The notes below the pieces were generated by a model. The model saw nothing but the letters and a program-made list of their open reading frames with translations, did no database searches and had not been told where the DNA came from. This document shows positions 1,598 through 11,093 of a stretch of DNA of 11,219 bases, one piece after another. The position numbers and the translations under genes are program-made. The DNA comes from Lachnospiraceae bacterium (GTDB taxonomy: Bacteria; Bacillota_A; Clostridia; Lachnospirales; Lachnospiraceae): assembly GCA_017960415.1 (NCBI GenBank), contig JAGCZE010000495.1, positions 1 to 11,219 on the forward strand. Direction: 5' to 3'. How positions within the stretch are numbered: position 1 is the first letter of the stretch; the number at the start of each line of letters is the position of its first letter.

Positions 1598-2335
1598 ATG
1601 ATCATTTATTTTTCGGGAACCGGAAATTCGCTATATGCGGCAGAATATCTGCTTGAAGAGAATGAAAGACTTGTTTCGCTGGCAGAGCTGATCAGACAAC
1701 AGAACTATACCATCGGATTGGAGAATGGCGAAAGACTCGGACTCGTATTTCCCGTGTATTTTTATACTGTTCCTTCGATCGTCAGGGAATTTCTTGAGAA
1801 AGCGGAAATAAGGAATGCCGGCTATGTGTTTGGCATAATGACCTGCGGAGGCGGTACGGCGCAGGCATCGGCGGTATTGAAAAAGATACTGGCAAAAAAG
1901 GACATTACGCTTTCATATTTCAAGGAGCTTCTGATGCCTGATAATTCAATGCTTTTTTATCAGATACCGGGTCCCGAGAAGGCCGAAGGCAGGATCAGGG
2001 ATGCTGCAAAGGTGCTGGAAGGGATCAAAAAGGATATCGGGGATAAGAAAACAACCGCAATCGGCAATAATACGCTTATCTCATCACTGATGGGGCTCGG
2101 ATACGATCTCTGCTCTGGCACAGAGAAGTTTTACGCCGGGGAAAGCTGTATCGGTTGCGGGCAGTGCGAGCGCAACTGTCCGATGCAGATCATCCGGATG
2201 CAGGACAAAAAGCCTGTCTGGACCCTCAAGAAGTGTTGTAAGTGCAGCGCCTGTATAAACAGATGCCCCGTAAAGGCGATACAGTACGGCAAGGCAACGA
2301 AGAAGAGAAACAGATATGTTAATCCTATGGTGTGA
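1598..2335 (+). CDS. EFR1-family protein: flavodoxin domain fused to a 2x[4Fe-4S] ferredoxin
   Basis: This 245-residue protein begins with the FMN-phosphate-binding loop FSGTGNS (residues 5-11) of the flavodoxin fold, followed by the strand-loop FPVYFYTVPS (51-60) and the flavin-side segment MTCGGG (81-86). The C-terminal part holds two cysteine clusters, C184-x2-C187-x2-C190-x3-C194-P and C213-x2-C216-x2-C219-x3-C223-P, which are standard ligands for two [4Fe-4S] clusters. Length and order fit the EFR1-type ferredoxins of anaerobic Firmicutes. It should be a cytosolic electron carrier passing electrons between FMN and iron-sulfur centres; its partners are unknown. The start is clear: GGAGGT at 1587-1592 sits 5 nt before the ATG. 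The next gene overlaps its last 20 bases, so the two are probably co-transcribed. Confidence 0.9.
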   Translation: MIIYFSGTGNSLYAAEYLLEENERLVSLAELIRQQNYTIGLENGERLGLVFPVYFYTVPSIVREFLEKAEIRNAGYVFGIMTCGGGTAQASAVLKKILAKKDITLSYFKELLMPDNSMLFYQIPGPEKAEGRIRDAAKVLEGIKKDIGDKKTTAIGNNTLISSLMGLGYDLCSGTEKFYAGESCIGCGQCERNCPMQIIRMQDKKPVWTLKKCCKCSACINRCPVKAIQYGKATKKRNRYVNPMV

Positions 2336-3461
2336 TGCAAGGGTAGCTGCAGCCAGAATGCAGGATCTGATCGATGAATACAATGCCAAACAGATAACCG
2401 AGTCATATCTTATCGAGAGATATGACCAGCTTAAAGATATGATGAGCAGACCGGAGTACAGTCATCCAAATGAGCTTCCTAAGATCATCAGCGATGATCC
2501 TCAGCAAAGGTATGAGGACATGAAGGTTATCAACGGTAATGTCCTTGGAAATGTGTGGAAGGGCCATCTGAAGGATGTTGAAAGCTACATTAAATATCGG
2601 CTGGACAGTGATCCGAACCTGGACAGAGGCGATCTGAGCAACGAGGAATGGCGTGAGTCATGGAGAAACGCAATAAAGTTTGAAGCTATGGAGCTTCGCG
2701 GAAAAGCTGATCTTCCGTTAGGCGTGCTGAACCCTGAGGATATTGAGAATACGATCGATCAGGATGACATGCTGCAGGAGGCAGATCCCGAAGAACTTAA
2801 GGAAAGAGAAAAGAAACTGAAGGAAATCGCCGAAAGCAGGCATCATAAGGAATTTTATGATGACATCGTTTCAGGGCTCGGTAAAACGGATAATGAACGG
2901 AGGATGGAAGTTAGCGGACAGGAAAAGGAAGCACAGCTTCTGAGCATGCCGCAGGCGATCTATGAGAATATCACCGAGCTTGGAAAGATCGATAAAGAGC
3001 TGTATATGGCTGTCGCCCGTCCCGTAGCACTCCAACTGGTAGAGATAAGGGGAGGCAAGATACCCGGTAATATGAAGCTGGAACAATTTACCGAAAAACT
3101 TGCCAGGGATAAGAGCTTCAGAGCAGTCTTAAAGCCTTTGTTTGATGAGATCCACAACGAGAAAACCGCAAATGACAAAGCTGAGAAGCTTGAATCCGCA
3201 GAGCATCTTATCGGCATGGTCAAAGACGGAACCATTCTTCACGCATTTGGACTTGAAACAAGGACGGCGAAGATGGGTAAAGCCGGTGAGGGCGTAAAGC
3301 ATGCCAAAACTCTTGCTCAGGTTAAGGAGGAAGAAAACAGGCTTAAAGCGGCCGAAGAAGCACGAAAGCAGAAAGCGGCCGGCAATGGGCCTCAAAAAAA
3401 TGCAGCCGGTAACGGGCAAAAACAGGCCGATAAGGGGAAGAAACAGCCCGAGAGGGTCTGA
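2316..3461 (+). CDS. Unrecognised charged protein with coiled-coil segments and a KxAAGNG tail
   Basis: I do not recognise this 381-residue protein. It has no signal peptide and no clear membrane segment. It is rich in Glu, Lys and Asp, with helical or coiled-coil character around residues 143-175 and 328-353. Its C-terminal tail (353-380) is low complexity and basic and contains two AAGNG units. A central part (about 55-310) looks globular. Two starts are possible: ATG 2316, overlapping the EFR1 stop by 20 bases, or ATG 2358 (residue 15), 22 bases after that stop. Neither has a strong ribosome site (AAGGG at 2339-2343 is 14 nt from the second), so translational coupling to the EFR1 gene is likely. 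The text before Met15 (DARVAAAR) reads like coding sequence, hinting that this may be the C-terminal part of a longer ancestral protein. It could also be a complete cytosolic scaffold or structural protein. Confidence 0.7.
   Translation: MLILWCDARVAAARMQDLIDEYNAKQITESYLIERYDQLKDMMSRPEYSHPNELPKIISDDPQQRYEDMKVINGNVLGNVWKGHLKDVESYIKYRLDSDPNLDRGDLSNEEWRESWRNAIKFEAMELRGKADLPLGVLNPEDIENTIDQDDMLQEADPEELKEREKKLKEIAESRHHKEFYDDIVSGLGKTDNERRMEVSGQEKEAQLLSMPQAIYENITELGKIDKELYMAVARPVALQLVEIRGGKIPGNMKLEQFTEKLARDKSFRAVLKPLFDEIHNEKTANDKAEKLESAEHLIGMVKDGTILHAFGLETRTAKMGKAGEGVKHAKTLAQVKEEENRLKAAEEARKQKAAGNGPQKNAAGNGQKQADKGKKQPERV
3375..3417 (+). repeat. Two imperfect 16-bp direct repeats encoding AAGNG
   Basis: Positions 3375-3390 and 3402-3417 match at 13 of 16 bases and encode the tandem AAGNG units in the tail of the charged protein. 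All three mismatches are transitions at third codon positions, so the peptide is conserved. Confidence 0.55.
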
Positions 3462-3482
3462 GATCAGCTCTTTATCTGATCT
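3461..3482. terminator. Weak dyad between convergent genes, possible bidirectional terminator
   Basis: AGATCAG (3461-3467) and CTGATCT (3476-3482) form a 7-bp stem with an 8-nt loop. The stem starts in the stop codon of the plus-strand gene (3459-3461), and the loop carries the stop of the minus-strand MATE gene (3472-3474). There is no T run on either side, so intrinsic termination is doubtful. Confidence 0.25.
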
Positions 3483-4839
3483 GAGGATCTGATGATTCGC
3501 CAAGATGCCGGTCCTCTCCTTTTCGCCACCACCATATGATGCATATTAACGATACAATGCCGGCCAATATTTCTGAGCTTAGACTTGTCATCCATAATCC
3601 ATCGACACCGATAAGGAGGGGCAACAGCCTGATAAAGAGCAGAGGTCCTATAAGTCCTCTTGCCAGTGCGATGACAAGAGAAGCAGTACCTTGGTTGACA
3701 CCTGTGAAATAAGAACCGGCATAGACTGTGATACCGTTCAGCAGGAAATACAGGCAGACGAGTCTGAACGCATGAACAGATATGCCGGTCAGAATTTCAT
3801 CATAACCTACAAAAAAACGCACGACGGCATCTGCCGCAAGAAGGCACAATCCGGTAATGCAAACTCCGATGGAAGCCATCAGCAGCATTCCCTTATGCCA
3901 CAGATGGTGGAGTTCTTCCTTGTTGGATTTTCCGAGATGATATCCCGCCACCGGAATGATGGTCATGCTGATGCCGTAGAATACCGCATTGAAGAACCCT
4001 GATGCATATTCACTGACAGCATAAGCCTCAACACCGGCATTGCCGAGATAGCGGATAAGCTGCAGATTAAAGATTACTGCTACGAAAGCGTAAGCGGCAG
4101 AATCGACCATTTCCGAGACGCCGTTATACATGGAGCCGATAAGAGCCTTTAAGTTTGCGGAAGGTCGTACAAAATGCAGACTATTGCTCCTTTTCATAAA
4201 GAAAACCAGAGGGATCACGGCGCTGACACACCAGGCTAAACCCGTAGCAAGGGCAGCACCGCGCATTCCCCACCGGAAGCCGGCAACGAATAACCAGTCC
4301 AGCAGTATATTTACGACTGCATTTGAGATCGTAACCGTCAGACCCAGACCGGGGCGCTCTGCTGCGATGAGCAACGGATGAAAGGCCATGGATAATACCT
4401 GGAAGGGCATAAACAGGGCAAGTATATAGCTGTAATCGAGACAATAGGGTAGAAGGTCTTCTGAGACGCCGGTCAGGCGGGCAATGGATGGCATCAGGAA
4501 AAACATGACTGCTGAAAGGACAATTCCGATAGCCCCAAGAACGATGATCAGGAAGGAGAAAAGCTGATTGGCTTTCTCTTTGTGTCCTTCACCGAGTTCT
4601 TTGGCGAGAAATGCGCTTGAACCGCTGCCGAACATGAGACCGATGCTCATGATGATCATGATCGGCGGAAAGATCAGGTTCTCTGCACCGAAGGCATCAG
4701 CACCAATGTAATTAGAGATAAAATATCCGTCTGCCACCTGGTAGGTATTATCTACGATCTGCATTCCGATGCTGGGCAGGGAAAATAAAAGAAGACGGGA
4801 GATCGTGAAATGATCCGACAGTTGGATTTTTTGCTTCAA
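3472..4839 (-). CDS. MATE-family efflux transporter
   Basis: This 455-residue protein has about 12 hydrophobic segments in two halves, the usual size and shape of MATE exporters (Na+- or H+-driven drug and metabolite efflux in the cytoplasmic membrane). Typical MATE stretches are visible: LPSIGMQIVDNTYQVADGYF (residues 20-39), FGSGSSAFLAKELGEG, and NAVVNILLDWLF in the first half. The second half begins near NGVSEMVDSAAYAF and carries YGISMTIIPVAGYHLGKSN. The start is TTG (4839-4837): the next Met is residue 25, inside the first helix, and GGTGAT (4851-4846) gives a ribosome site 6 nt upstream. It is transcribed away from the NRPS, with 104 bp between the two starts, and may export the NRPS product. 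That link is by position only, since MATE proteins also handle unrelated toxins. Confidence 0.9.
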   Translation of the reverse strand: MKQKIQLSDHFTISRLLLFSLPSIGMQIVDNTYQVADGYFISNYIGADAFGAENLIFPPIMIIMSIGLMFGSGSSAFLAKELGEGHKEKANQLFSFLIIVLGAIGIVLSAVMFFLMPSIARLTGVSEDLLPYCLDYSYILALFMPFQVLSMAFHPLLIAAERPGLGLTVTISNAVVNILLDWLFVAGFRWGMRGAALATGLAWCVSAVIPLVFFMKRSNSLHFVRPSANLKALIGSMYNGVSEMVDSAAYAFVAVIFNLQLIRYLGNAGVEAYAVSEYASGFFNAVFYGISMTIIPVAGYHLGKSNKEELHHLWHKGMLLMASIGVCITGLCLLAADAVVRFFVGYDEILTGISVHAFRLVCLYFLLNGITVYAGSYFTGVNQGTASLVIALARGLIGPLLFIRLLPLLIGVDGLWMTSLSSEILAGIVSLICIIWWWRKGEDRHLGESSDPQIR

Positions 4840-4943: not shown

Positions 4944-7900
4944 ATGGCTAAAAATATAAACAATCTGAAATCTGTTCCTGAAATGATAGCACAGATCGCA
5001 AGGGAGAACCCGGATAAAACAGCTGTTATTGCCGTTGACAGGATACTTACATACAGAAATCTGGATGAACTCTCCGATAAGGCGGCTTACAGTATAATGT
5101 CGATATGTTCCGATCTTAAGGAAGGAACTCCCATAGGACTTCTTTTAGACAGAAAATCTTATGTGTTTCCTTTGGAGATAGGTCTTGTAAGGGCCGGTCT
5201 TGCCTACCTTCCCATGACGGATGAATATCCTGTTGAGAGGATCGAGTATTGTCTGAAAAATGCGGACAGCCCGGTTTTGATCACAACAAGGGATATTTTG
5301 GACCAAAAGCAGGGGATAGACAAAGGAAGTTTCAGAATCTTATTTGCGGAAGATATCCTGTCATACGAAGGAGATCCTGTGGATCTTCCCGGGATCGGCA
5401 TGGACAGGCTCTCTCACATTTTTTATACCTCAGGCTCCACAGGGGTTCCCAAGGGGGTAAAGAATACTGTCAGAGCCGATGCGGAGACCGTGACCGTTAC
5501 AGATGACAAAGTGGCGTTGTATGAATATTTTACAACACCGGTCTGCCTTGCAGTCACGCAGATCTCTTTCATAGCATCCATGTATGATTACGGGGTGTTA
5601 TGTAACGGCGGCTCGATAGTATTTGCTGGGGAAAAGCTGTTCAGGGATATGTCGGCCCTTGCGGATACGATGCTTGAGTACGAAGTTCAGGGCCTTTTTG
5701 CTACGCCGTCATTTATAAAAAACCTTCTTTCGATAAAGGCTGCAAAACCGGCTTTTGCAATACTGGACGTGGTAATTTCAGTGGGAGAAAAGCTTGATCC
5801 GGTTATCCTTGATCCTTTGTTCAACCTTAATCCCGGGCTTCATGTTATTAATGCCTACGGACTTACGGAAACCAACTCAGGTATCGCTGGCAGACTGATA
5901 ACCGCTGAAGACCGGAGCGACAGTATAGGCTGTTTCAGTCCCATTGTGGAAGCTGTTGTACTTAAAGAAAACGGGGAGCCGGCTTCAAGTGATGAGAACG
6001 GAGAACTCCTTATAAGCGGCAACGTCGTTACAATGGGATATCAGAAGCTTGAAGAACGTAACAGATCATCATTTGTCGATATCAATGGGAAAAGATATTT
6101 CAGAACCGGAGATGTGGTCAACAGGGACAGGACCGGGGAATACCGTATTGTAGGCAGAAACGATGATATGGTCAAGTATCACGGCCAGAGAGTAGAGCTG
6201 GGTGAGATCGAAACCCTTATAAGACAGTTTGACGGCATAAGGGATTGCAAAGTTATCCTGAGAAACAACGGGAAGGAAGACTTCCTTGCGGCTTTTTATA
6301 CCGCTGACTGTGATATAAAAAACAGGGAAGCAGCATCATTTCTTAAGGAAAAACTGCCTGCTTATATGGTACCCGGTGTTTTTGTAAGGCTTGATGAAAT
6401 GCCCCTGAACCGGAACGGGAAGCTGGACCGTATAAAGCTGATGGAGATGGAGCTTGCTTTTGAAGGCGCGGATTACGAGGAGCCTGATACCGAGCTTGAA
6501 AAGACTGTATGTGAGGCTTTTGCGCAGGTACTGGGGAGCGAACGCTTCAGTGTCACAGGGGATTTCTTTGACTATGGCGGGACCTCACTGTCGGTATCAA
6601 GCCTGATATCCGTTCTGGGTGATGAAGGATACACGGTGTCCTATGGAGATGTATTTTCAAATCCTACGCCCAGAATGCTTTCAGGATTTATTGAAAATAA
6701 AGATAATGCCACAGATATACCGCCACTGGACCGGGATGAGTATCCCCTCACCAAGACCCAGCTTGGTATTTACCTTGAGGGGATCACCGGCGGAAGCAAA
6801 GAGACCTATACGGTTCAGTATATGATGGAGGCTGATCCGGACGTTGATGAGAATATGCTGATCGCTGCGGTCAATACTTTGTTTGAAGCCCACCCGGCAT
6901 TAAAATATCACATAAGGTGCAGAGAAAATGAACTTCCTTACATGACTTTGGTTCCTGATGCCGTGACAGAGGTGCCGGTTTTTGAAGGAGAGAAGGACAA
7001 GAGGATAGAGTTCATCAGCAGTTATATGCCGGTTGTTAAGGTGCTGGACAACCTTCTGTTTAACTTTGCCGTATATAAAACAAAAGAGTGCTGCTATCTG
7101 ATACTTAAGAGTCACCTTATTGCCACTGACGCAACTTCATTAAGCCTTATCATATCAGATCTTAACAGAACTCTCGGAGGTATCGGCCTGTTAAGGGAAG
7201 ACTGTACGATCCAGCAGGCGGGCATGTATGAGCAGCGGCTTATTGAAAATGGGGCACACGAAAGAGCAAGGGAGTATTATGCAAATCTGTTTTCAAAAAT
7301 GGACAGCATGGATGCTCTTACGGGTGACCTTAACAATCCGTTGACGCCCGGTATCAGCACAAACTACAGATATGAACCCGGAACGCTTAAGGTTGAAACC
7401 GTCAAAGAGTTTTGTGATAAAAACAGGTTTTCCGAGAGTGCCTTTTTCATGGGTGCTATGGCGCTGCTTCTCAGTAAATATTTATACACGGATCATGTAT
7501 CCTTCTCAACTGTATATAACGGAAGATCCCTGAAGGAGATGGAGAATACCATAGGAACTCTTATAAAGAGAATTCCTGTTTACGGGGATGTATCAGGGAA
7601 TATTGACGTTAAAGCCTTTCTTTCGGGAATAGGAAAACAGATCTTTGCCAATATGAGTAATGACATTTACTCTTTTGACGAGGTTTTGAAAACATGTCCT
7701 GTAAATGAGGATGTAGAGCTTATTTTCCAGGGCGATATGTTCACCGATAATATGGGGATGGCTGCAGGTAAACAGAAGCTAAGGAGCGATTCCTATTTTA
7801 TGGAGCACTATCATACGGGAATGGTCACAGGCTGCATGTCGATTCAGCTCTTTGCGACAAACGGCTTCTATAATATGACCATAGAGTACAGAAACGAGCG

Positions 7901-10900
7901 ATTCTCCGAAAAATGGATAAAGAGATTTGCGGACCACCTTTTCCTTATTGCCGGGCAGCTTCTTACCTGTGAAAACATAGGCGATATAGTGATGATGGCT
8001 GACGAGGATACGGAGCAGATCGCATCTTTTAACAATAAAGCTGTGGATTTTGACTTTATTCCCGTTCACAGGCAGATATCGGAATATGCGCATCTGACAC
8101 CTATGAAAAAGGCTGTTATCTGCGCCGGAAAAACCCTTACCTTTTATGAGCTGGATCTTCTGTCAAATCAGCTTGCAGATTTTCTAAATAAAAAGAATGT
8201 CGGAAAAGATGTTCCTGTGGGAGTCCTTTTGGACAGAAGTATCCTGGTTTATGTGACAGAAAACGGAATATTGAAGGCCGGAGGCGCATTTGTACCTTTT
8301 ATCCCTGAGTATCCCGATGAAAGGATCGATTTTTGTATGCAGGATGCGGATATTCCCCTGCTCATAACTACCCGGGATATCAAAGAAAACAGAAAAAATC
8401 TGTGCAGCAGGGATTATGAGCTGATCACGCTCGAAGAGATCTTTGGAGTCCCCGATCAAAACTGCATAAAACCGGATGAAAGATTTATGAACATCCGGAC
8501 AGCACCTTCATCTGAAACAGACCTGGCATACTGTATCTATACTTCGGGGTCTACAGGAAGACCAAAGGGTGTTATGATCGAGCATTCGAACATAGCCAAC
8601 TATGTTAACAGAAATCAGAGATCGGTTGAGATCATGCATTATGCCGGTGAAGGACGGATCAGCCTGGCGCTGGCATCCTTCTCCTTTGACGTATCGGTGG
8701 TAGAGGAATTTGTACCGCTCTGTAACGGTAATACGGTTGTTATAGCCACAGAAGAAGAGATACATGACCCGGATCTTCTGGCAAGGCTCATCATAGAAAA
8801 TGATGTTAACGGTATTACATGTACGCCCACATATTTATCGAGCCTGCTTTCCATACCGGCTTCAAGGGAGGCATTAAGGAATATTACATTCTTTGATATT
8901 GGCGCGGAGGCATTTCCTTCTTCTCTGTATGAGGCTCTGCGAAGCATCAGGGATGACAGCGTTATCCTTAATGTTTACGGTCCTACAGAATGTACAATGG
9001 GATGCTCAGCTGATATTGTGGACGGTTCCGGGGTCGTTACTATCGGAGAGCCGATGGCCAATACTGCTTTTTATATTTTTGACAGATTTGGCAACGAACT
9101 CCCTGCAGGTATAAGAGGCGAACTGATAATAGCCGGAAAGCAGGTAGGAAGAGGCTATGTGGGACTTCCGGAAAAGACCGCCGCAGCGTTCTTTGAGTAC
9201 AATGGAATGAAGGCTTATCACAGCGGGGATCTCTGTTCCTGGACGGCAGATGGCAGGATCCGTATATTCGGGCGAATAGATAACCAGATCAAGCTTCGCG
9301 GATTCAGAATCGAGCTTGATGAAATAGAGAGGGTTATGACCGAATTTGAGGGTATAAAGGCAAGTGCCGTGAAAGTCGTAAAAAATGGGAAAACCGAGTT
9401 TCTTGCAGGATACTTTGTTTCAGAAGCAGAACCCGAATGGGATGTTTACCGGGGATTCATAAAAGAAAAACTCCCCGGGTATATGGTTCCGCAGATCATC
9501 CGCAGGATCGAAGAAATGCCTCTTACAGTAAATGGAAAGATCGACAGGAAGGCATTGCCCGTGCCGGATATTTCTGAGCTGAAGGCAGAATATGCAGCAC
9601 CTGAAAATGAGATCGAGAGAAGGCTGTGTGATGCTTTTGCCGGGGCTCTTTCTCTGGAAAAGGGTTCTGTGGGGACAGCAGATGATTTCTTTGAACTTGG
9701 CGGGGATTCGCTGACGGCTATGGCGGTGCTTTCAGATGCTGCCATAGAAGGACTTACCGCTGCAGATGTATTTCAGAAGAGAAATCCGAAGGAAATAGCA
9801 AAAGCCGTAGAAAAAAGGATCTTACAAGGAAATCCCGATGAACGGGAATCCGGATCGAGAAGAAGGCCGCATGCCCTTACTCCGATGCAGATAAAGATGA
9901 TCGATTACCAGCTCTTTAAGCCCGGTTCTTCCATGTGGAGCAATATGCACTTCCTTGCAAGATTTGACAGAGGTATAGATGCGGAAAGGCTTTGCAGGGC
10001 TGTAAAGACAGCTATAAAGAATCACCCGGGGCTTTGCGTGGTATTTGAATACAATGAGAATTCAGATCTTCAGCAGAGGTATGATGAAAACATTATGCCT
10101 GACATCAGGGTAGAAGATGTGACCGAGGAGGATATCGGGGAGCTTAGGAAGACCCTTGTAAAACCTTTCGGGAAAATACTTAAGTCCTGTCTTTTCAGAA
10201 CAAGGATATTCAGAACTGCCGACAATGCATATCTGTTTTTTGATGTACATCACCTCCTTATGGACGGGGGTTCAATAGGCGTTCTTCTGCAGGATATCAC
10301 TGACGCTTATTTTGGAAGAGAGCTCAAAAAGGATTATTATTTCCTGCTTCTTGATAATGCGGATAAGGCAAAAGAAGATGGAACATGCGAAGCGGATAAG
10401 AAATATTTTGAAGGACAATACGGTAAGGACGCCGTGGAGTATAAGATAATCCCGACACCCGATCACAAGTCCAATAATAATTCTGCCGCCGGGCGGATAA
10501 AGCGGCTTCAATTTGATGCGGAGCAGGTTAAAAAAGCTGAGGATTACTGGGGTGTCACTCATTCCTGTATGGCTGTAACAAGTGCCCTTATTGCCTTAGC
10601 GCGGCATGAAAACGCTGATAAGGTAATGTGTAACTGGATATTCAATGACAGGCTCTCACCTGAATCTGAACATGCGGTAGGACTTCTTATAAAAAATCTT
10701 CCGGTGGGAGTTAACTTAGAAGATTTTGAGAATATGAGAGATATCCTGCAGGACGTAAAGCGTCAGATCGGTGAAGGCATTGCCCATTCGTCCTATGATT
10801 ATTTCATGGGATTTGATTCGGCCTTCAATACAGATCCTATGGAAGTTAACCTGCAGCTTGGGATCAATGCAGATGAGCTGGATGAGCTGTCAGCGGAATT

Positions 10901-11093
10901 ACTGGAACTTGAGGATCCTTATGCTGCAGCCAGCGCCCGTCTTGAACTTGAACTTCTGGAGAATGAGTATGGTGACGGCGGATTTGATGCAGAGCTTGAA
11001 TATGTAAAGGAAATCTATGACGAGGATAATATAACAGCTTTCCATGACAGTTATGTATCGATCCTGGAATCGCTAGTCAACTGCAGGGGTTAA
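4944..11093 (+). CDS. Non-ribosomal peptide synthetase, A-T-C-A-T-C
   Basis: This 2049-residue multidomain enzyme has two adenylation (A), two thiolation (T) and two condensation (C) domains in the order A1 (about 8-500), T1 (512-586), C1 (600-1030), A2 (1045-1540), T2 (1551-1625), C2 (1642-2045). A domains activate acids as adenylates and load them on the phosphopantetheine arms at Ser548 and Ser1589; C domains join them. There is no N-terminal C domain, so module 1 is a loading module. No thioesterase, reductase or epimerase follows, so release must use the terminal C2, a partner in trans or hydrolysis. Oddities: A1 has Ile in place of the amino-binding Asp, and C1 has HLIATDA in place of HHxxxDG, while C2 has an intact HHLLMDG. 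The gene ends in tandem stops TAATAA. No phosphopantetheinyl transferase or MbtH-like gene is in the window, so the former must be elsewhere. The product cannot be named from sequence. Confidence 0.95.
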   Translation: MAKNINNLKSVPEMIAQIARENPDKTAVIAVDRILTYRNLDELSDKAAYSIMSICSDLKEGTPIGLLLDRKSYVFPLEIGLVRAGLAYLPMTDEYPVERIEYCLKNADSPVLITTRDILDQKQGIDKGSFRILFAEDILSYEGDPVDLPGIGMDRLSHIFYTSGSTGVPKGVKNTVRADAETVTVTDDKVALYEYFTTPVCLAVTQISFIASMYDYGVLCNGGSIVFAGEKLFRDMSALADTMLEYEVQGLFATPSFIKNLLSIKAAKPAFAILDVVISVGEKLDPVILDPLFNLNPGLHVINAYGLTETNSGIAGRLITAEDRSDSIGCFSPIVEAVVLKENGEPASSDENGELLISGNVVTMGYQKLEERNRSSFVDINGKRYFRTGDVVNRDRTGEYRIVGRNDDMVKYHGQRVELGEIETLIRQFDGIRDCKVILRNNGKEDFLAAFYTADCDIKNREAASFLKEKLPAYMVPGVFVRLDEMPLNRNGKLDRIKLMEMELAFEGADYEEPDTELEKTVCEAFAQVLGSERFSVTGDFFDYGGTSLSVSSLISVLGDEGYTVSYGDVFSNPTPRMLSGFIENKDNATDIPPLDRDEYPLTKTQLGIYLEGITGGSKETYTVQYMMEADPDVDENMLIAAVNTLFEAHPALKYHIRCRENELPYMTLVPDAVTEVPVFEGEKDKRIEFISSYMPVVKVLDNLLFNFAVYKTKECCYLILKSHLIATDATSLSLIISDLNRTLGGIGLLREDCTIQQAGMYEQRLIENGAHERAREYYANLFSKMDSMDALTGDLNNPLTPGISTNYRYEPGTLKVETVKEFCDKNRFSESAFFMGAMALLLSKYLYTDHVSFSTVYNGRSLKEMENTIGTLIKRIPVYGDVSGNIDVKAFLSGIGKQIFANMSNDIYSFDEVLKTCPVNEDVELIFQGDMFTDNMGMAAGKQKLRSDSYFMEHYHTGMVTGCMSIQLFATNGFYNMTIEYRNERFSEKWIKRFADHLFLIAGQLLTCENIGDIVMMADEDTEQIASFNNKAVDFDFIPVHRQISEYAHLTPMKKAVICAGKTLTFYELDLLSNQLADFLNKKNVGKDVPVGVLLDRSILVYVTENGILKAGGAFVPFIPEYPDERIDFCMQDADIPLLITTRDIKENRKNLCSRDYELITLEEIFGVPDQNCIKPDERFMNIRTAPSSETDLAYCIYTSGSTGRPKGVMIEHSNIANYVNRNQRSVEIMHYAGEGRISLALASFSFDVSVVEEFVPLCNGNTVVIATEEEIHDPDLLARLIIENDVNGITCTPTYLSSLLSIPASREALRNITFFDIGAEAFPSSLYEALRSIRDDSVILNVYGPTECTMGCSADIVDGSGVVTIGEPMANTAFYIFDRFGNELPAGIRGELIIAGKQVGRGYVGLPEKTAAAFFEYNGMKAYHSGDLCSWTADGRIRIFGRIDNQIKLRGFRIELDEIERVMTEFEGIKASAVKVVKNGKTEFLAGYFVSEAEPEWDVYRGFIKEKLPGYMVPQIIRRIEEMPLTVNGKIDRKALPVPDISELKAEYAAPENEIERRLCDAFAGALSLEKGSVGTADDFFELGGDSLTAMAVLSDAAIEGLTAADVFQKRNPKEIAKAVEKRILQGNPDERESGSRRRPHALTPMQIKMIDYQLFKPGSSMWSNMHFLARFDRGIDAERLCRAVKTAIKNHPGLCVVFEYNENSDLQQRYDENIMPDIRVEDVTEEDIGELRKTLVKPFGKILKSCLFRTRIFRTADNAYLFFDVHHLLMDGGSIGVLLQDITDAYFGRELKKDYYFLLLDNADKAKEDGTCEADKKYFEGQYGKDAVEYKIIPTPDHKSNNNSAAGRIKRLQFDAEQVKKAEDYWGVTHSCMAVTSALIALARHENADKVMCNWIFNDRLSPESEHAVGLLIKNLPVGVNLEDFENMRDILQDVKRQIGEGIAHSSYDYFMGFDSAFNTDPMEVNLQLGINADELDELSAELLELEDPYAAASARLELELLENEYGDGGFDAELEYVKEIYDEDNITAFHDSYVSILESLVNCRG
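4965..6443 (+). other. NRPS domain A1 (loading adenylation)
   Basis: Core motifs are present: YTSGSTGVPKG (161-171), NAYGLTE (303-309, Leu for the usual Pro), RTGD, GRNDDMVKYHGQRVELGEIE, and the catalytic NGK with Lys493, so it should be able to adenylate. By hand alignment to GrsA the specificity residues read I-A-Y-F-V-S-A-S-G-K. The first is normally Asp235, which holds the amino group of an alpha-amino acid; here it is Ile210 in the segment FIASMY. This suggests a substrate without a free alpha-amino group (aryl, fatty, hydroxy or keto acid), or an unusual amino acid. Confidence 0.8.
6477..6701 (+). other. NRPS domain T1 (thiolation)
   Basis: DFFDYGGTSLSV carries the phosphopantetheine serine at residue 548. 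The motif is YGGTS instead of the usual LGGDS or LGGHS, but the spacing to the DVF helix is normal, so it is probably functional. Confidence 0.85.
6741..8033 (+). other. NRPS domain C1 (condensation, degraded active site)
   Basis: It opens with YPLTKTQLGIYLEG (C1 motif) and has NGRSLKEMENTIGTLIKRIPV (C4/C5 region). Where HHxxxDGTS is expected, it reads His724-Leu725-Ile-Ala-Thr-Asp729-Ala730-Thr-Ser. The second, catalytic His is therefore Leu and the Gly is Ala, while the structural Asp and the following TSL stay in register. The domain is full length with no frame break, so it is kept as a protein but may not catalyse normal condensation. Confidence 0.8.
8076..9563 (+). other. NRPS domain A2 (adenylation)
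   Basis: All core motifs are close to textbook: YTSGSTGRPKG (1199-1209), FDVSVVE (1248-1254), NVYGPTE, HSGD, GRIDNQIKLRGFRIELDEIE and NGKIDR with Lys1532. The hand-derived specificity code is D-V-V-T-F-I-V-M-G-K. Asp at the first position (Asp1249) says alpha-amino acid. The rest matches no standard code I remember; the lining looks hydrophobic, so an aliphatic or aromatic residue is a weak guess. Confidence 0.85.
9594..9818 (+). other. NRPS domain T2 (thiolation)
   Basis: DDFFELGGDSLTAM (1580-1593) is canonical, with phosphopantetheine attachment at Ser1589. Confidence 0.9.
9867..11078 (+). other. NRPS domain C2 (terminal condensation, intact)
   Basis: It opens with ALTPMQIKMIDYQ and has an intact HHLLMDGGS (His1769, His1770, Asp1774, Gly1775) and VGLLIKNLPVGV (C5 region). 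The domain runs to the end of the protein; its last 100 residues are strongly acidic. In known families, terminal C domains can release the chain by condensation with a free amine or by cyclisation, or pass it to a partner synthetase. Confidence 0.85.

Follow-up and report, generated by a model that had tools for sequence, protein, structure and literature searches.

A two-module bacterial peptide synthetase family that ends in a distinct clade of condensation domains, with a predicted thioesterase-free release

Nonribosomal peptide synthetases (NRPSs) that end in a condensation (C) domain are known from fungi and from bacteria. The fungal enzyme AlSidE has the order A-T-C-A-T-CT, makes fumarylalanine, and was shown to yield fumarylazlactone (PMC11101550). 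For VftPS, also fungal, the authors propose cyclo-L-Trp-L-Leu as the product, like that of its relative PboA. In bacteria, the rhabdopeptide/xenortide NRPS Kj12ABC is a docking-domain line of single-module subunits, and the terminal C domain of Kj12C, a separate protein, hands the chain to a free amine (PMC6195595). A survey of 8,160 rumen genomes counts 5,346 NRPS clusters (PMC8241843). In the literature passages retrieved, the string A-T-C-A-T-C mostly denotes fungal enzymes, and its bacterial cases are longer lines. Two further designs are the A-T-C-A-T-R NRPSs of the gut, which make dipeptide aldehydes, and Ebony-type enzymes, which are A-T-amine-selecting; the last domain of Ebony is not known to be a PF00668 C domain. 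Our literature search, which matched titles and the start of abstracts and covered few subscription journals, found no published description of the NRPS family reported here.

The window analyzed is an 11,219-nucleotide stretch of DNA from a Lachnospiraceae bacterium (contig JAGCZE010000495.1). Its NRPS gene has an ATG start codon with a GGAG box upstream, and a stop codon is present. Pfam, run on the whole protein and on six pieces, gave the domain order A1-T1-C1-A2-T2-C2. In the piecewise searches, AMP-binding (184.9 bits for A1 and 240.8 for A2), PP-binding for both carriers, and Condensation (PF00668; 113.7 bits for C1 and 132.6 for C2) were all over their gathering scores, with the AMP-binding_C piece of A2 just under its cut-off (22.6 versus 24.5 bits). 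Profile match and fold both place the C domains in PF00668. A previous reading made from the sequence alone had described a synthetase of this order with no thioesterase, reductase, or cyclase and with an intact HHLLMDG motif in C2. Pfam bears this out, finding none of these domains and no NAD-binding or other release domain in the whole protein or its pieces, and the motif starts at residue 1769. Promoter scans, terminator scans, and Rfam gave no matches. Elsewhere in the window, an EFR1-family ferredoxin (NCBIfam, 239 bits, cut-off 75) adjoins a 381-aa ORF without a Pfam or NCBIfam match, and neither recurs beside relatives. The window ends 126 bases past the NRPS stop codon, and downstream context was therefore taken from the loci of relatives. 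Coordinates are collected in Table 1.

Table 1. Features of the window and of related loci; positions without a locus name are those of the window.
Feature	Position	Strand	Evidence or remark
NRPS, A1-T1-C1-A2-T2-C2, 2049 aa	4944..11093	+	ORF, Pfam, homologue lengths
A1 adenylation domain, Ile at Asp235 position	4971..6452	+	237 bits to TIGR01733, cut-off 317
T1 carrier domain, Ser548 (GGTSL)	6504..6692	+	PP-binding 42.0 bits; Ser 113/113
C1 condensation domain, non-canonical, HLIATDA for HHxxxDG	6732..8021	+	
A2 adenylation domain, Asp235 kept, code DVVTFIVMGK	8085..9564	+	352 bits to TIGR01733, cut-off 317
T2 carrier domain, Ser1589 (GGDSL)	9618..9809	+	PP-binding 36.7 bits; Ser 113/113
C2 terminal condensation domain, HHLLMDG at nt 10248, protein end right after fold	9873..11078	+	
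MATE family exporter, 455 aa, divergent from NRPS	3472..4839	-	PF01554 106.9 bits
EFR1-family ferredoxin and adjoining 381-aa ORF	1598-2335 and 2316-3461		
Second NRPS+MATE pair in a Selenomonas genome, A-T-E-C-A-T-C	L100:4243-13014		
Metallo-beta-lactamase-superfamily hydrolases	L001:4163-4969 (upstream); L015:11478-12452 and L056:8446-9432 (downstream)		L015 and L056 form one similarity cluster
FMN reductase-transferase fusion	L004:12641-13945; L041:12641-13945; L007:3664-5019		Pfam
MATE fused to HATPase_c_2	L061:11223-12998; L062:9652-11412		
HGSNAT-like membrane acyltransferase	L017:8522-9778; L032:11265-12461		

A search of 5.8 billion proteins with the C2 region returned 231 homologues. 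Of 120 that were listed, 113 have lengths of 1900-2110 aa and are alike in domain motifs, and all alignment counts below refer to these 113. The other seven (1199-1722 aa), which lack the N-terminal part and align from window residues 353-857 onward, were left out before motifs were counted. Because 113 of 120 listed homologues share one length class, the A-T-C-A-T-C NRPS is, judged by its sequences, a recurrent family, and neither a broken assembly line nor a chance ORF. When 84,980 species genomes were searched with a C2 alignment, 116 relatives were found, from which 79 loci were kept, L065-L079 being distant relatives. The nearer loci come from Butyrivibrio, other Clostridia, Anaerovibrio, and Selenomonas, and also from single bins labelled Prevotellaceae, Synergistaceae, Chloroflexi, and Riflebacteria, in which stray contigs are possible. 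A host animal is named in 20 titles among L001-L064, and all 20 name a ruminant; the hosts are goat, roe deer, water buffalo, yak, water deer, and reindeer. Within the genus of Butyrivibrio sp. MC2021, the gene is patchy, a C2 match at E <= 1e-40 being present in 12 of 79 genomes. Genomes titled as isolates carry the NRPS in Butyrivibrio and Anaerovibrio and the single-module form described below in Selenomonas. A plasmid search gave 26-28% identity in the best 25 of 2825 records.

The two adenylation domains differ in their substrate pockets. The ten specificity positions, for which we assume GrsA numbering, were placed by eye, with position 235 backed by an alignment to LgrA. Asp235 is the binding residue for the alpha-amine of an amino acid (PMC11355689). 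This position is Ile, Val, or Leu in A1 of all 113 aligned homologues and Asp in A2 of all 113. The window's A1 code is off by one at 299 and 301 between two alignments, with 235 the same in both. A1 has 66 distinct ten-letter codes among the 113, against four for A2, where the code is almost invariant (DVVT[FY][IV]VMGK). Over eight pocket positions, the mean entropy of A1 is 2.11 bits where 1.42 was expected (a value reached by 1.3% of random draws over the same stretch), and that of A2 is 0.08 bits where 0.60 was expected (0.6% of such draws were as low). A1 retains the core motifs YTSGSTGVPKG, YFRTGDV, and NRNGKLDR; its score falls below the cut-off of the amino-acid adenylation model TIGR01733, and that of A2 lies above it. 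On the state of Asp235, the model scores, the code counts, and the entropies, A1 probably loads a strain-dependent carboxylic acid that is not an alpha-amino acid, and A2 probably loads one fixed amino acid. Glu at position 299 occurs in 15 of 113 A1 domains, and these pockets might bind an omega- or beta-amine placed elsewhere. A comparison of the A2 code with DltA gave no likeness: the stand-alone matches (L102, L110, and L113) are below the DltA cut-off, and their codes are unrelated.

C1 carries HLxxxD, with Leu at the second, catalytic His in 113 of 113 homologues, the first His kept in 112, and the Asp in all 113. The sequence-only reading had mentioned neither this motif nor the loss of Asp235 from A1. 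Since every member lacks the second His, the first bond would be formed without the canonical catalyst. Across the retrieved loci, 50 of 181 C domains have Leu at this position, one per locus and all of them the C1 of this family (two are duplicate entries). Mean pairwise identity is 0.68 for C1 and 0.64 for C2. This greater conservation, together with the retained His and Asp, suggests that C1 is in use.

C2, by comparison, keeps its HH motif in 112 of 113 homologues. The C2 of locus L008 reads SNLLMDG in place of HHxxxDG and is possibly an inactive copy. From the HH motif to the protein end there are 281 residues in the window and 163 to 306 among the 112 homologues, and none of these lengths leaves a C-terminal docking extension. 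In a tree of 49 C domains, C2 falls in a clade of 20 rows with full support (100/100) and a stem of 1.16, and in none of the 20 does another NRPS domain follow the clade domain. Four kinds of enzyme, the A-T-C-A-T-C synthetases included, contribute to it. The second is a single-module A-T-C with an A2-type code, which accounts for 43 of the 50 proteins P0121-P0170 and for eight loci (L044, L045, L047, and L049-L053). The third is an A-T-C whose A domain lacks Asp235 (P0166-P0169); the remaining three of these 50 proteins are P0164 and P0165, both cut short in A, and P0170, an unrelated NRPS. The fourth, in sister position, is the end of a 2471-aa A-T-E-C-A-T-C protein from the Selenomonas genome that also contains L053; this protein has its own MATE gene 18 bp downstream, and its E domain was assigned by tree position beside E references. 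In the rows checked, the protein continues for no more than 11 residues past the C profile envelope, P0169 excepted; residues 973-1159 of P0169 form a 187-residue tail past the terminal C domain, without a Pfam match and by eye acetyltransferase-like. Two further A-T-C loci, L061 and L062, have a different code, DFEA[FY]IVIIK.

The earlier reading held that grouping of C2 with ordinary elongation C domains would count against a release role. In a first, separate tree, the clade is distinct from five LCL and three DCL references, all from one Bacillus cluster with types assigned from domain order. It is also apart from three E references, and the C2 motif HHLLMDGGSI lacks the DGxSW found in these three. 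Structural comparison against the PDB, for both C2 and C1, placed several kinds of the C superfamily within about two Z units of each other and so did not separate the subtypes. The C2 profile matched bacterial C, E, and heterocyclisation domains and fungal PKS-linked C domains, and no fungal CT was among the 49 matches listed. The acceptor-gate Arg, a feature that reportedly comes from work on FscG, was tried as a subtype marker and rejected, as it is missing in C2 and equally in C1.

By tblastn, 50 of 59 loci (the window and L001-L058) have a MATE gene no more than 700 bp from the NRPS, and among the window's other genes the MATE gene alone falls in a neighbor cluster of more than two of the 65 loci compared. 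Of the nine loci without it, four (L006, L028, L038, and L054) are cut by a contig end on at least one side, in L007 the MATE gene stands 1.5 kb away behind one intervening gene, L037 carries an MFS transporter instead, and in L013, L042, and L043 none was seen near the NRPS. Several other neighbors were observed in subsets of loci. Beside the NRPS and MATE in L004, L041, and L007 is a fusion of an NADPH-dependent FMN reductase with a leucyl/phenylalanyl-tRNA protein transferase, which might add tRNA-derived Leu or Phe to an amine of the product. An HGSNAT-like membrane acyltransferase, possibly a tailoring enzyme, is directly downstream of the NRPS in L017 and L032. Next to the single-module A-T-C of L061 and L062, the MATE protein is fused to an anti-sigma kinase-like HATPase_c_2 domain. 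In eight Selenomonadaceae loci (L024, L027, L033, L035, L036, L040, L042, and L055), the order is STAS protein, NRPS, MATE if present, and SpoIIE-type phosphatase with a sensor region; these genes, assigned by Pfam for L035 and by similarity for the other seven, may form a partner-switching operon.

Built on the observed domain order, motif states, A1 and A2 pockets, terminal position of the C2 clade, and MATE linkage, our preferred reading is a self-contained two-module synthetase with intermolecular release by C2 and export by MATE, to which we give a probability of about 0.5. A1 would adenylate the strain-dependent acid, without the usual alpha-amine, and place it on T1, while A2 would put its one alpha-amino acid on T2. 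C1 would then couple the two despite its missing His, giving an acyl-aminoacyl-T2, and C2 would pass this chain to a small free nucleophile and so release it, with the adjacent MATE protein carrying the product out. An amine would be the most likely nucleophile, by analogy with known terminal C domains (PMC6195595). Intermolecular release is the simplest account for the whole clade, because the lone aminoacyl- or acyl-T of an A-T-C cannot itself form a diketopiperazine or an azlactone. Thioesterase-free release by C2, as the sequence-only reading had proposed, is supported by a clade that is terminal in every row examined and that also stands behind a lone A-T, and by the rarity of a further NRPS gene downstream in relatives' loci (1 of 42). 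The single-module relatives may share the logic of Ebony, with one amino acid loaded and joined to a free amine, though their last domain, in contrast to what is known of Ebony, belongs to PF00668. AusA, the aureusimine synthetase and the best NCBIfam model for the NRPS (1044 bits, cut-off 2500), likewise has two modules with A first, and ends in a reductase where C2 stands here; given this difference and the absence of Asp235 in A1, no aldehyde or pyrazinone chemistry is expected. In favor of the preferred reading, Pfam found no decarboxylase and no annotated thioesterase family among 32 genes that flank or lie near the NRPS in relatives' loci, two kinds of companion that the sequence-only reading had suggested looking for. 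Against it, none of these neighbors hints at a nucleophile, C1 lacks the canonical catalyst for the assumed first bond, and hydrolysis by C2 would suit the same architecture. The three hydrolase genes described below, the A1 pockets with Glu at 299, the second NRPS gene of L042, the tail of P0169, and the undecided fold comparison also weigh on that side.

The fungal enzymes offer the closest parallel to this domain order, with a terminal C domain replacing the thioesterase in both. As in AlSidE, C2 could close the N-acyl-aminoacyl thioester to an azlactone (oxazolone), which would be hydrolyzed to an N-acyl amino acid or would acylate other molecules non-enzymatically. AlSidE also takes an acid without an alpha-amine (fumaryl) and then an amino acid (PMC11101550), the same pairing that is predicted here from A1 and A2. 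We nevertheless consider such a route unlikely: the same clade follows a single aminoacyl- or acyl-T in the A-T-C enzymes, where there is no N-acyl group from which an azlactone could form. The present enzymes differ further from fungal CT systems in being bacterial and in their HL motif in C1, hypervariable A1, single-module A-T-C kin, and MATE partner, and the sequence matches of C2 are led by bacterial C domains.

Water could also be the acceptor. Hydrolysis by C2 would fit an identical domain anatomy and would yield a plain N-acyl amino acid, and terminal C-like hydrolases are known (crocacin). The lack of an acceptor-making gene among the 32 scanned neighbors speaks for hydrolysis, and three of the 32 are metallo-beta-lactamase-superfamily hydrolases, all below every NCBIfam cut-off. 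Some proteins of this superfamily are thioesterases, and release in trans by the neighboring hydrolase is possible in the strains of L001, L015, and L056. However, these genes are present in just three of the loci looked at, and a single-module aminoacyl A-T-C that hydrolyzed its thioester would only return the free amino acid, which would be futile beside an exporter. On balance, hydrolysis appears less likely again than azlactone formation.

A hand-over of the chain to a carrier on a partner protein whose gene lies elsewhere in the genome would follow precedent, since C domains do end proteins of multi-protein lines; PlpE of the pelgipeptin line ends in C. A further protein is said to follow PlpE in that line. 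Here, six-frame HMM scans covered 61 loci, of which 42 extend 5 kb or more past the NRPS; 41 of these 42 had no other gene with C and T domains and one, L042, had such a gene about 5 kb downstream, with profiles trained mostly on this NRPS family that could miss distant carriers. The same scans found lone AMP-binding enzymes in L030 and L061. A downstream partner NRPS, which the earlier reading had named as evidence against release by C2, is thus nearly absent beside the relatives. There is also no docking tail, and C2 lies apart from the LCL and DCL references, which together make a hand-over improbable. Nor are the proposed likeness to the rhabdopeptide kind and an amine as the free acceptor supported as they were put: a terminal C domain as last catalytic domain and the lack of a thioesterase are common to both, but all domains here sit in one protein, and no docking tail in the window or partner at 41 of 42 relatives' loci points to a multi-subunit line.

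The order of VftPS would also fit a cyclodipeptide synthetase releasing a diketopiperazine, which we regard as very improbable: both A domains of the fungal cyclodipeptide synthetases take alpha-amino acids, whereas A1 here fails at Asp235 in 113 of 113 homologues, so its first unit probably lacks the ring-closing alpha-amine, and the single-module A-T-C relatives cannot form a diketopiperazine alone. Equally little weight falls on a dead C1, in which case C2, as the only condensation catalyst, would couple the acid on T1 with the amino acid on T2, perhaps between the subunits of a dimer, and release would take another route; the universal Leu in C1 beside a canonical C2 would suit it, but C1 is the more conserved domain, retains its first His and Asp, and C2-type domains are present where T1 is absent.

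With release by C2 to a free nucleophile as the preferred reading, a wider interpretation can be put forward tentatively, and we hold it to be possible rather than probable. C2 may be a portable terminal-C release module that Clostridia and Negativicutes of the rumen share, along with other phyla if the bin labels hold. An unvarying amino acid and an unvarying release partner would make a constant head, and a fast-evolving A1, with a C1 that forms the amide without its catalytic His, would supply strain-specific acyl tails, with export by MATE proteins and STAS/SpoIIE wiring in Selenomonadaceae. As the gene is present in isolate-titled genomes of Butyrivibrio and Anaerovibrio, and in single-module form of Selenomonas, a direct search for the product is possible. 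The constant A2 beside the variable A1 is a natural experiment in the evolution of A-domain pockets, and the universal HL motif of C1 would probe the extent to which the second histidine is required. The enzymes would add a bacterial thioesterase-free route via a condensation domain beside those of the rhabdopeptide type, in a compact single protein that suits biochemistry. If the wider interpretation is true, the rumen would hold a chemical family that extends across its bacteria, with one head and many tails.
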